Assembly: GCA_016788045.1 (NCBI GenBank)
Contig: JAEUTG010000029.1
Location: 62,001-126,000, forward strand
Length of the DNA stretch: 64,000 nt
Direction of reading: 5' to 3'
DNA from: Bacteroidales bacterium
GTDB taxonomy: Bacteria; Bacteroidota; Bacteroidia; Bacteroidales; Lentimicrobiaceae
Within the stretch, counting starts at the first letter, position 1, and every line of letters starts with the position of its first letter. The notes beneath the pieces were generated by a model that did no database searches, was not told the DNA's origin, and saw only the letters and a program-made list of their open reading frames with translations. The translations under genes were made by a program, and so were the position numbers. Shown here in pieces: positions 10,778 through 60,341 of the stretch.

Positions 10778-13012
10778 GTTGGTGGCGGGGTCGGATGTTG
10801 GCAGAATTCACGATACGAATGGGAGATTCGACCCCGGCGGGGTCGAATGTTTATAGAATAACGAGAATGGTAAGGCCTACGACCCCAGCGGGGTCGCATG
10901 TTTATAGAAATGGCGATTTCAGATTGGATTCCGACCCCGGCGGGGTCGAATGAAAAATGACAGCACCGGGAATTAAATTTTTTCTTCGGGGCGAGGAATT
11001 CAGAACCAAATTACAGGGGGAATGTACGACCCCGCTGGGGTCGGGAATTTCTATCTTGTTCATGTTTTCTATAAACATATGACTCCTCCGGAGTCAGGCA
11101 TCCAGGTGCCGCATTCGTTTTTGCCCCCCCCCCTGAGGGATCAGATGTTTATAGATTATCAGGAATGGTAAAGATATCGACCCCAGCGGGGTCGCATGTT
11201 CATAGAAATGGCGATTTCAGATTGGATTCCGACCCTGGCGGGGTCGAATGAAAAATGACAGCACCGGGAATTAATTTTTTCATTTCGGGGAGCGGAATTC
11301 TGAACCAAATTACAGGGGGAATGTACGACCCCGCTGGGGTCGGGAATATCTATCCTGTTCATTTTTTCAATAAACATATGACTCCTCCGGAGTCGGGCAT
11401 ACAGGTGCCGCATTCGTATTTGCCCCCCTGCGGGGTCAGATGTTAATAGAATATCGGGAATGGTTATGATATCGAACCCAGCGGGGTCACATGTTTATAG
11501 CAATGGCGATTCCAGATTGGTTTGCGACCCCGCCGGGGTCGAATGTAAATGACAAACCGGGAATTATATTTTTTATTTCGGCCGCGGAATTCAGAACCAA
11601 ATTGCAGGGGGAATGTACGACCTCGCTGGGGTCGGGAATTTCTATCCTGTTCATGTTTTCTATAAACATATGACTCTTCCGGAGTCAGGCATCCAGGTGC
11701 CGCATTCGTATTTGCCCCCCTGCGGGGCCAGGTGTTAATAGAATATCGGGAATGGTAAGGATATCGAACCCAGCGGAGTCGCATGTTTATAGCAATGGCG
11801 ATTCCAGATTGGTTTGCGACCCTGGCGGGGTCGAATGTAAAATGACAGCACCGGGAATTAAATTTTTTCTTCGGGGCGCGGAATTCAGAACCATATTGCA
11901 GGGGGAATATACGACCCCGCTGGGGTCGGGAAATTCTATCCTGTTCATGTTTTCTATAAACATATGACTCCTCCGGAGTCGGGCATACAGGTGCCGCATT
12001 CGTTTTTGCCCCCCTGCGGGGTCAGATGTTAATAGAATATCGGGAATGGTTATGATATCGAACCCAGCGGGGTCACATGTTTATAGCAACGGCGATTCCA
12101 GATTGGTTTGCGACCCCGCCGGGGTCGAATGTAAATGACAAACCGGGAATTATATTTTTTATTTCGGCCGCGGAATTCAGAACCAAATTGCAGGGGGAAT
12201 ATACGACCCCGCGGGGGTCGGGAAATTCTATCCTGTTCATGTTTTCTATAAACATATGACTCCTTCGGAGTCGGGCATACAGGTACCGCATTCGTTTTTT
12301 CCCCCTTGCGGGGTCAGATGTTTATAGATTATCGGGAATGGTAAGGATATCGACCCCAGCGGGGTCACATGTTTATAGCAATGGCGATTTCAGATTGGTT
12401 TCCGACCCCGGATGGGTCGAATGTAAAATGACAGCACCGGGAATTAAATTTTTTCTTCGTGGCGAGGAATTCAGAATCAAATTGCAGGGGGAATGTACGA
12501 CCCCGCGGGGGTCGGGAAATTCTATCCTGTTCATGTTTTCTATAAACATATGACTCCTCCGGAGTCGGGCATCCAGGTGCCGCATTCGTTTTTGCCCCCC
12601 TGCGGGATCAGATGTTTATAGATTATCGGGAATGGTAAGGATATCGACCCCGCCGGGGTCACATGTTTATAGCAATGGCGATTTCAGATTGGTTCCCGAC
12701 CCCGCCGGGGTCGAATGTAAATGACAAACCGGGAATTATTTTTTTTATTTCGGCCGAGGAATTCAGAATCAAATTGCAGGGGGAATGTACGACCCCGCTG
12801 GGGTCGGGAATATCTATCCTGTTCATGTTTTCTATAAACATATGACTCCTCCGGAGTCAGGTATCCAGTTGCCGCATTCGTTTTTGCCCCCCTGCCGGGT
12901 CAGATGTTAATAGAATATCGGGAGTGGTAATGATATCGACCCCAGCGGGGTCGCATATTTATATAAATGGCGATTCCAGATTGGTTCCCGACCCCGGCGG
13001 GGTCGAATGCTT
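10778..13012. repeat. Hairpin tandem array A (about 293-bp units, no transposase)
   Basis: A non-coding array of seven complete units and partial units at both ends. Units start with the first palindrome at 10880, 11178, 11473, 11765, 12059, 12351, 12645 and 12937 (periods 292-298). In unit 1 the palindromes lie at 10880 (P1, followed by CATGTTTATAG), 10932 (P2), 11027 (P3) and 11081 (P4, preceded by TTCTATAAACAT). P1-P3 have GACCCC/GGGGTC arms and P4 has GACTCC/GGAGTC arms around a ~3-nt loop. A fifth half-palindrome (GCCCCCCTGCGGGGTCAGATG type) lies about 50 nt after P4. Two spacer variants alternate from 11473, giving an exact 586-bp higher-order period. Short open frames cross it on both strands but are by-products of the repeats. 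It has the same layout as array B at 57706-60177. Confidence 0.9.
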
Positions 13013-18477: not shown

Positions 18478-18534
18478 CAAAGTTCTTTTGAACTTTTAAT
18501 TCCTAAAACTCTAATTATTCATACTTCCTATCTC

Positions 18535-18597
18535 TGACCTCCGACCTCCGACCTCCGACTTCCGACCTCCGACTTCTGACCTCCGACTTCTGACCTC
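18535..18597. repeat. Heptanucleotide tandem repeat, 9 units
   Basis: Nine uninterrupted copies of YGACYTC (variants CGACCTC, CGACTTC, TGACCTC). The variants are interspersed rather than random. It lies 33 nt before the -7 box of the GH2 gene. Confidence 0.85.
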
Positions 18598-18629
18598 CGT
18601 TTTCCGTTTGCCATATCCTCGCGAATCAC

Positions 18630-57477: not shown

Positions 57478-58663
57478 GTAGATCATGACCTTTTTTCCAA
57501 GAAATTGGTCGGAGCCCCAATAGCACTGACATTCAGAGTTGAAGTCCTGAATCCGGACGAATTAATCAAAATGATAGATTGAATTTGTAATATTGAGCTT
57601 AATATGCTTAGTCATGGGCCAACCAAAAGAAATTCGATATTTTGCTGAGGCAGGTGTTCTGGCGGGTGAAATTGCTTTACCCGTTAAAGATATTTGATAA
57701 ACATTCGACCCCTCCGGGGTCGGAGCCTTATCCGATATGGTTATTTCAATAAATATATGACCCCTCCGGGGTCAGGCCAGGATTTCCGGGGTTGCGTTAT
57801 TAATTAAGAGCCTCTTTCGGGTTAAACGAACATTTTTAAGAACAATGATTTTGACTCCGGAGGAGTCAAATGTTTATAGAAGACATGAATGTAATAGAAA
57901 TGTGCGACCCCGGAGGGGTCGAATGTTGCCTGGATTCAATTTTCATTTTCCATGAAGATCGAAAAAGCTTTGAAGCAAATTCTTCTTTTCCATTGACATG
58001 CGACCCCTCTGGGGTCAGAGACCTGATTGTTATTTTAAGTTCTATAAGCATTTGACCCCTCTGGGGTCAGGTTGGCCTTTGTAAAATTGATTTTGATTAA
58101 ATAGCACATTTAGGTTAATCGAATATGCTCAACAAAAAGGATTTTGACTCCAGCGGAGTCATATGTTTTTGAAAAGCACGAATGTGGAAGAAATGTGCAA
58201 CCTCAGATGGGTCGAATGATACCTGCATTCAATTTTCCTTTTCAATTAAAACCAAAATAGCTCAAAAGCATATTTTTCCATACAATGAACATGCGACCCC
58301 TCTGGGGTCGGAGACCTGATTGTTATTTTAAGTTCTATAAGCATTTGACCCTTACGGGGTCGGGATAGTATTGTTGAGGTTAGTTATTTTTAAGTGCAAC
58401 ATTGGGATAACCGATTTTTTTTCAGAGCAGGGATTTGACTCCAGCGGAGTCAAATGTTTGTAGAAAAGCCCGAATGTGGAAGAAATGTGCGACCCCGGAG
58501 GGGTCGAATGTTTTCCCGGTGTCACATGTAATCCAATGCCCAATGTCAATCAATTAATCAATGATATACGTTCATTATTCTTCAAATGTTGTATCTTTCA
58601 GAATTATCAGAATTATGTTTCAGAAACTTCCCGTTATTTTTTCATTTATTAAAAATCATTATT

Positions 58664-59122
58664 ATGGCTGATACTTATTCGCAGATCTACATTCAAACCG
58701 TTTTTGCTGCGCAAAACCGGAATGCCCTGATTGGCATTTCCTGGGAAGAAGAATTATTCAAATATATCACTGGAATTGTGCAAAACAAGGGGCAAAAGAT
58801 GTTATCAATTAATGGAACCGCTGATCACATTCATTTTTTCATCGGAATGAAACCTTCGTGTTGCTTATCCGATCTGGTTCGTGAAATCAAAAAGTCATCA
58901 TCCTCTTTCGTTAAAGATAAAGGATTCTGTAAAAGCCGGTTTTCCTGGCAGGAAGGCTTTGGTGCTTTTTCTTATAGCTATTCACAGCTTAACGATGTGA
59001 TAAAGTATATAGAGAATCAAAAGCAGCACCATGCGAAAGTTGTTTTTAAGGAAGAATATCTATCCTTTCTGAATGCATTTGAGATTGAGTTTAAGAATGA
59101 TTATTTGTTTGAATGGATTTGA
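58664..59122 (+). CDS. IS200/RAYT-like single-tyrosine HUH transposase
   Basis: An intact 152-aa Y1 transposase that cuts and joins single-stranded DNA at hairpin ends. The HUH metal motif is H55-I-H57 in GTADHIHFFIG; the catalytic tyrosine is Y115 in VIKYIENQ with Gln119 four residues later, as in IS200/IS605 TnpA; FSWQEGFGAFSYS is a family signature. The frame opens at 58586, but MADTYSQIY at 58664 is the family start. No TnpB accompanies it. It replaces the ordinary 96-bp interior of a unit of array B, so those hairpins are its probable recognition ends. Whether it is better called IS200-like or REP-associated cannot be settled by eye. Confidence 0.9.
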   Translation: MADTYSQIYIQTVFAAQNRNALIGISWEEELFKYITGIVQNKGQKMLSINGTADHIHFFIGMKPSCCLSDLVREIKKSSSSFVKDKGFCKSRFSWQEGFGAFSYSYSQLNDVIKYIENQKQHHAKVVFKEEYLSFLNAFEIEFKNDYLFEWI

Positions 59123-59324
59123 TGAGATTTTGTGCCTTGAGGTGAATTTCACAGAACCTTTTAAAAACATAAAGCAACATACGACCCCGCTGGGGTCGGG
59201 GACCTGTTTGTCATTATCAATTCTATAAACATTTGACCCCTCCGGGGTCAGGATAGCCTTTCAGAGAATGTTTTTTAATTAAATGTCACATCCGGTAAAA
59301 CGAATGTTTTGAAATAGGGATTTT

Positions 59325-59340
59325 AACACCTTTGGAGTCA
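59325..59340. repeat. Scar-like single palindrome in array B (first)
   Basis: AACACCTTTGGAGTC is preceded by the sequence that normally leads into P1 and followed by AGGATGGCC, which normally follows P4. A whole P1-P4 unit is missing here. Confidence 0.6.
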
Positions 59341-60003
59341 GGATGGCCTTTCTGAGATTGATTTTGATTAAATAGCACATTTGGGTTAATCGAATATTTT
59401 CAACAACAAGGATTTTGACCCAGGAGGGGTCAAATGTTTATAGAGAACCTAGATATGACAGAAGTGTGCGACCCCTGATGGGTCGAATGTTACCTGCATT
59501 CAATTTTCCGTTTCAATTAAAGCCAAAATAGCTCAAAAGCATATTTTTTCCATACAATGGACATGCGACCCCTCTGGGGTCGGAGACCAGATTGTTATTG
59601 ATAATTCTATAAACATTTGACCCTTCCGGGTTCAGGTTGGCCTTTGTAAAATTGATTTTGATTAAATAGCACATTTGGGTTAATCGAATATTTTCAACAA
59701 CAAGGATTTTGACTCCAGCGGAGTCAAATGTTTTTAGAAAAGCACGAATGTGGAAGAAATGTGCAACCTCGGATGGGTCGAATGATACCTGCATTCAATT
59801 TTCCTTGTCAATTAAAACCAAAATAGCTCAAAAGCATATTTTTCCCATACAATGGACATGCGACCCCTTCTGGGGTCGGAGACATGATTGCTATTGTTAA
59901 TTCTATAAACATTTGACCCCTCCGGGGTCAGGATAGCCTTTCTGAGAATGCTTTTTGATAAAATGTCACATCCGGTAAAACGAATGTTTTGAAATAGGGA
60001 TTT

Positions 60004-60019
60004 TAACACCTTTGGAGTC
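60004..60019. repeat. Scar-like single palindrome in array B (second)
   Basis: The same junction as at 59325, within a ~680-bp segment that is duplicated (59182-59497 and 59861-60177), so it may be a copy of one event. Confidence 0.6.
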
Positions 60020-60341
60020 AGGATGGCCTTTATGAGATTGATTGCGATTAAATGCTGCAAACGGGTTAATCGAACATTTTCAAGAACTTTTATTTCGACT
60101 CCGGAGGAGTCAAATGTTTGTTGAAATACCCGAATGTTGAAAAAAAAGTGCGACCCCGGCGGGGTCGAATGATTGTTAAATTTCTTCACACATCAGTTGA
60201 ATCGGGCTTAGCCGATATCAGGTCCCAACCAGAATTATTCCGGCATTCTATTGCGTAGATGAAATCGCAGGGGAAATAGACTCACCTAAATCCTGAAACA
60301 GGTCATTTGTTCTCGTAAACTTTCCGGGCCTGATTTTTCAC

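Follow-up and report, generated by a model that had tools for sequence, protein, structure and literature searches.

Multicopy short intergenic palindromes and the Y1 transposases that accompany them are described in the REPtron (TnpA_REP/RAYT with REP, BIME or REPIN elements) of E. coli, Pseudomonas and Stenotrophomonas (PMC6006769, PMC8266576, PMC2817692, PMC3116915). In that system, the enzyme TnpA_REP both attaches to the REP hairpins and cleaves them (PMC8266576). The TnpA of IS608 and ISDra2 binds subterminal hairpins of single-stranded DNA and cuts where a guide beside the hairpin directs (PMC6006769). For TnpA subclass 1.2, Quentin et al. 2018 entered 'no' for REP and reported no typical IS200 ends (PMC6006769). 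Here we analysed a 64,000-nt stretch of a Bacteroidales genome (GenBank assembly GCA_016788045.1, contig JAEUTG010000029.1, positions 62,001 to 126,000 of the forward strand), hereafter the window, which carries two arrays of tandem palindromes, A and B, with a gene for a Y1 transposase, TnpA, inside array A. The host genome is a 4.7 Mb draft of 60 contigs, its membership in Bacteroidota being inferred from relatives, and it was surveyed by pattern searches and protein searches. Arrays A and B are likely to be a REP/BIME-like system, a REPtron whose enzyme is this TnpA and whose recognition unit is a pair of hairpins at a clade-specific spacing.

Both arrays consist of tandem palindromes GACYCC-NNN-GGRGTC. 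Each palindrome is 17 nt long and usually reads CGACCCC-NNN-GGGGTCG or TGACTCC-NNN-GGAGTCA. They are paired head-to-tail and successive pairs flip orientation, giving the order [+ +] gap [- -] gap. The arrays are not a product of chance, because the strict motif GACCCCNNNGGGGTC has 72 copies genome-wide, compared with none for the reversed control. Palindromes of the same orientation were 51-53 nt apart in array B (10.8-13.0 kb, 16 pairs) and 52-55 nt apart in array A (57.7-60.2 kb, 12 pairs), and in every pair hairpin A was followed by the conserved box ATGTTTATAGAA. Gaps between opposite orientations were 93-98 nt in array B and 90-97 nt in array A, with three exceptions: two of 182 nt, each with a degraded palindrome (the right part of array A has such palindromes at 59325 and 60005), and one of 692 nt with the transposase gene. 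Each period of array B includes an additional, degenerate fifth palindrome (GCCCCCCTGCGGGGTCAGATGTTTATAGA), which lies 51 nt from the one that follows; the + runs of this array are therefore triplets. Between the arrays, hairpins were 0.73-0.89 identical and spacers 0.54-0.64, compared with 0.40 for shuffled spacers; the spacers are thus diverged yet homologous. Within one array, the spacers of neighbouring units were 75-95% identical.

These results were compared with a preliminary description of the two arrays. Both arrays were confirmed at the positions given. The layout, described as identical, agrees in its alternating pairs and differs in the fifth palindrome of array B and in the TnpA gene of array A, which had been missed. 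The spacers do differ widely, as reported, but are closer than shuffled sequence. The motif ATGTTTATAGAA, noted as shared with array B when array A is read in reverse, is indeed common to both; inverted symmetry explains this, because each unit holds [+ +] and [- -] pairs. The idea that spacing is conserved over sequence as a structural constraint was borne out for the pair (51-53 nt) but not for the full period of 292 nt, whose length differs from one array to another. In the rest of the genome, offsets do not vary as freely as spacer sequence: other GACCCC arrays, with periods of 188-189 and 340, retain 51-53 nt, and the spacing is 53-54 nt in an array whose arms are unrelated.

In other units, the position of the TnpA gene is taken by a gap of about 95 nt. 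Its protein product matched Pfam Y1_Tnp (E 4.5e-22) and, above the cut-off, the NCBIfam IS200/IS605 transposase model (57.3 bits); the NCBIfam REP-transposase model gave 22.4 bits, with a cut-off of 80. It carries the HUH motif DHIH, WQ, and Y115 within YIENQKQHH (signature Y-I-x-x-Q-x-x-HH). The predicted fold best matches hairpin-DNA-bound crystals of IS608 and ISDra2 TnpA, and also the E. coli RAYT 4er8, a REP transposase.

Eleven Y1_Tnp matches were found in the genome, ten of them without an internal stop. Eight full-length TnpAs, including that of the window, were aligned; the others were 33-52% identical to it. Y--Q--HH was invariant in all eight, with HUH and WQ varying slightly in some. 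Each of four TnpA loci (L005, L002, L003 and L008) has its own palindrome arms, and TnpAs of this genome with palindromes of their own beside them include the following (L029, CCGTCCC...GGGACGG; L030, ACAGGGC...GCCCTGT; L034, CCCGGGGC...GCCCCGGG). Strict palindromes outnumber the TnpA gene about 70:1. At L034, a transposase-like insertion (~10741-12406 of contig C8 of the same genome) with inverted ends CATACGCGTCAACTTAATT apparently lies within an array palindrome GCCCCGGAGGGGC of the second TnpA clade described below; it resembles insertion sequences targeting REPs.

A scan with an alignment of the closer TnpA set yielded 80 loci, whose TnpAs were 55-78% identical. They came from across Bacteroidota (among them Flavobacterium, Pedobacter, Belliella and Chitinophagaceae) and from a small number of bins with other labels. 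Hairpin density was 1.48/kb within 1 kb of TnpA and 0.16/kb beyond 2.5 kb, a difference of about nine times. Distances between neighbouring hairpins formed a single sharp peak at 48-54 nt; 163 adjacent pairs fell there, compared with a mean of 13 and a maximum of 24 under random placement. The median pair spacing per locus was 51.2 +/- 1.7 nt in 56 of the 80 loci (range between loci, 47.5-55 nt), so the spacing constraint extends beyond the window. Of the two hairpins in a pair, one has a conserved ATGTTTATAG box after it, for which pairwise identity was 82.6% with one pair taken per locus. Beyond the box, the linker was 29.5% identical, against 28.2% when shuffled, while the total linker length was 31-37 nt in 53 of the 56 loci. 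The foot after each hairpin is N-A-T (after hairpin B, A in 51/56 and T in 42/56) with no GTAG, and an A-T pair sits one base beyond each hairpin.

Anchoring on the box only was used to avoid selecting hairpins by pairing. Of the 276 17-mers that precede a box near TnpA, 213 had at least five of seven Watson-Crick pairs with this anchor, as did 1.9% of random 17-mers. The arms covary: 303 of 427 pairs were Watson-Crick, compared with a shuffled maximum of 218, 19 were G-T, and 32 different perfect arms were found. Spacing that is conserved while the linker sequence is free suggests that a single protein grips both hairpins of a pair simultaneously.

The spacing was further compared between TnpA clades. 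A second clade, with two members in the window genome (the L030 and L034 TnpAs), is about 35% identical to the window TnpA. At its loci, collected in a second search, neighbouring hairpins were 27-28 nt apart and almost none were at 45-60 nt, so this clade has a fixed distance of its own. When one hairpin rule was applied to all, 98 of 154 loci were labelled and 56 were not. The second clade (37 members, support 99) had 28 nt in 20 of 20 labelled loci; elsewhere, 75 loci were labelled 52 nt and three 28 nt, and one of these three, L107, had 53-54 nt under a stricter filter. On the TnpA tree, with ISDra2 and IS608 as the only outgroup, the labels required four changes, compared with a shuffled minimum of 17. 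Thus, the pair distance of about 52 or 28 nt is kept according to the TnpA branch, and the intervening sequence is not. Separately, a third TnpA clade (L209-L218, e.g. the flanks of L212) apparently has tandem palindromes of its own (CGGTGCGCTGCACCG); the hairpin filter found few of them and no firm spacing.

Related genomes of the genus show where the system is present and absent. The strict motif had 72 copies in the window genome, 65 in G001, 28 in G005, 26 in G013 and 0-2 in the other 15 genomes; the reversed pattern had none in all genomes of the genus surveyed. The G001 TnpA is 78% identical to the window TnpA and lies within the same kind of palindrome array. Their dN was 0.13 and dS was saturated, for which reason no dN/dS ratio is given. 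In 11 congeners, the lipoprotein gene and the M16 peptidase gene that flank array A stand next to each other, without palindromes. The TnpA array of G001 adjoins queA, and queA of the window genome is without palindromes. Since the TnpA-array unit stands at different sites in sister species, insertion is the simplest reading. Just 3' of the aminotransferase gene, at the array-B site, there was no palindrome in G010, G017, G014 and G006, the congeners read in detail; degraded copies are present in G013 and G005, the arrangement [- -]...[+ +] in G001, and seven units in the window genome. Another intergenic repeat, GGTGGTC...GACCACC with CGGAGCC, was observed downstream of the aminotransferase gene (L090, L092, L093) and between the lipoprotein and M16 genes (L230). 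It fills some of the same congener sites and in one case lies inside a hairpin element.

We propose that the functional site would be a hairpin pair on one strand, in the order hairpin A, ATGTTTATAG box, sequence-free linker and hairpin B, at 51-53 nt centre to centre. TnpA, closest to dimeric IS200/IS605 enzymes, would most likely bind and hold both single-stranded hairpins, one per protomer, the linker being long enough for the dimer to reach both. It would cut one strand near the conserved feet, and it would move or copy 52-nt units and whole inverted modules. Such mobilisation would explain head-to-tail ladders with 52-nt steps, alternating orientation, local tandem growth and dispersal. 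The ladder at L141, in which arms differ and steps are exactly 52 nt, is in keeping with units of one hairpin plus linker being added or removed one at a time. In the single-contig genome G230 (L195/L208; C1:1393683-1394979), 847 bp separate two TnpA genes whose match scores are identical and whose flanks carry the same hairpins, apparently a tandem duplication of gene and hairpin unit.

Several points weigh against TnpA as the enzyme of these arrays. No pair was found in 24 of the 80 loci at the thresholds used, which were chosen by the analyst. The TnpA structure model is moderate (pLDDT 75, 6 sequences). G005 and G013 have many palindromes and no close TnpA; therefore, arrays can persist without it. 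The empty array-A site could reflect repeated loss rather than insertion, and it is resolved to gene pairs, not to base level. Replication slippage, moreover, could build ladders without TnpA.

The spacing could also be merely inherited, arrays having grown by tandem duplication from one ancestral unit with the distance unconstrained. Duplication is real, as the similarity of neighbouring spacers within an array indicates, and ladders such as that at L180 consist of near-identical units. Inheritance as the full account is nevertheless unlikely: across 56 loci the similarity of the linker beyond the box is lost and its length is not, the arms at L141 differ at exact steps, and the spacing switches with the TnpA clade. 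A host function on double-stranded DNA, with sites for a nucleoid protein, for gyrase or for topology along one face of the helix and TnpA as a profiting neighbour, would suit arms that are perfect palindromes on both strands. It would also suit distances of 52 and 94 nt, which are near whole helical turns (52.5 nt being five turns), and known REPs bind host proteins (PMC6006769). We regard it as rather improbable, since the spacing ranges between loci over nearly a full turn, the 28 nt of clade 2 does not correspond to complete turns, and hairpins are concentrated beside TnpA with a spacing that tracks its clade. Fixed helical phase was accordingly rejected as the main cause of the 52 nt.

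Short GC-rich stems, and the place of array B between two convergent gene ends, would be in keeping with a role in RNA, as intergenic terminators or mRNA-stabilising hairpins. This is very improbable: the arms keep Watson-Crick pairs with few G-T pairs, both orientations alternate within one array, and the window contained no Rfam family at threshold; no T-run was noted beside the stems on reading the sequence, although no dedicated terminator scan was made. A tRNA search of the window also found none. The 17-nt palindromic repeat with 35-nt spacers superficially resembles a CRISPR array in its period and repeat. We give that idea practically no weight, because the spacers recur from unit to unit, successive pairs alternate in orientation, and array A contains a transposase gene; it was rejected on spacer identity.

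The proposed two-hairpin REPtron served by TnpA shares much with the described ones. In both, a Y1 transposase gene is flanked by its own palindrome family, and divergent TnpAs are each so flanked in one genome. The REPtron is characterised by extragenic palindromes of about 20-40 nt in many copies; here, the hairpins are 17 nt, strict copies number 72 and the arrays are intergenic. Orientation alternates in tandem as in BIMEs and REPINs, but the arrays are built of pairs. The unit is a head-to-tail pair with a fixed spacing and a conserved box, and the TnpA-array unit lies at different sites in sister species, both unlike the REPtron. The 5' GT[AG]G tetranucleotide of REPs is replaced by the N-A-T foot, and the Y---NP motif of REP/RAYT class 2 by Y---Q--HH. 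Lacking both the GTAG foot and the Y---NP motif, the system falls outside the REP/RAYT class as it has been defined.

By its motifs (Y---Q--HH, DH[IV]H and WQ), the window TnpA would belong to subclass 1.2, which it also resembles in length (~150 aa), occurrence in Bacteroidetes and low copy number (PMC6006769). The 'no REP' entry does not match the hairpin pairs flanking most members of the clades tested here. The automatic REP search of Quentin et al. required GT[AG]G and would miss hairpins of the window type. The hairpins beside the 80 TnpA loci dispute the table entry, not the class of the protein. IS608 and ISDra2, of the IS200/IS605 family, are alike in TnpA fold, in catalytic motifs and in having subterminal hairpins on either side of the gene. 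They are unlike in that the genome holds no identical multicopy insertion sequence, its full-length TnpAs being as divergent as noted above, that each end here has two hairpins, and that palindromes far outnumber the gene. TIR-associated tyrosine transposases (TIRYTs) and CGTC-tagged repeats are similar in comprising a Y1 transposase or palindromes that are not of the GTAG type (PMC3733652); judged by their descriptions, both differ from the present system. TIRYTs are probably class 2.1, unlike the window TnpA, which is subclass 1.2 by motif, and the CGTC repeats, reported in Bacteroidetes, are described as unlinked to a transposase (PMC3733652).

No earlier description of paired, spaced hairpins for subclass 1.2 was found in the open-access literature, a search that did not cover subscription papers and preprints. 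The system may represent a phylum-wide, unrecognised class of Bacteroidota REPs, in which a dimeric subclass 1.2 TnpA would recognise two tandem hairpins on one strand at a clade-set 52 or 28 nt, and the 52-nt hairpin-plus-linker would be the smallest mobile unit, moved by excision and insertion of single-stranded DNA. We put this wider proposal forward tentatively, as plausible and slightly short of probable. It would place REP-type elements beside a TnpA group described as having none. The proposed recognition site would have a ruler built into it: its two hairpins keep a fixed distance that is specific to the clade, and the linker between them is free. This gives a direct prediction on one enzyme gripping two hairpins, through a change of linker or a clade swap. 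A common repeat class of Bacteroidota would also be explained.

Table 1 Features of arrays A and B in the window.
Feature	Position	Strand	Remarks
Array B	10784..13009	.	About 7.4 units of 292 nt, alternating [+ +]/[- -] pairs; between the 3' ends of convergent genes for an SNF2-type helicase and a PatB-like aminotransferase
Three head-to-tail hairpins	10829..10948	+	Spaced by 51 and 52 nt; ATGTTTATAGAA follows the first and second
Example [- -] pair	11027..11096	-	Order: hairpin B, linker, TTCTATAAACAT box, hairpin A (GACTCCTCCGGAGTC)
Array A, left part	57706..58506	.	[- -] and [+ +] units upstream of the transposase gene
TnpA (Y1/HUH transposase)	58664..59122	+	152 aa, intact; inside array A, between a [+ +] and a [- -] pair
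Array A, right part	59182..60167	.	[- -] and [+ +] pairs downstream of the transposase gene

Such repeats may break assemblies and give spurious open reading frames. Two contigs of the window genome (C8:1 and C46:1) start in apparently the same palindrome array, with similar units in opposite orientation; therefore, the draft assembly probably breaks there. A 106-aa open reading frame in array B (11464-11784, - strand) appears to be a by-product of the repeat, and such frames may be annotated as hypothetical proteins. A 14-nt short tandem repeat (TCTGACCTCCGACT) at 18532-18599 of the window is unrelated to the arrays.
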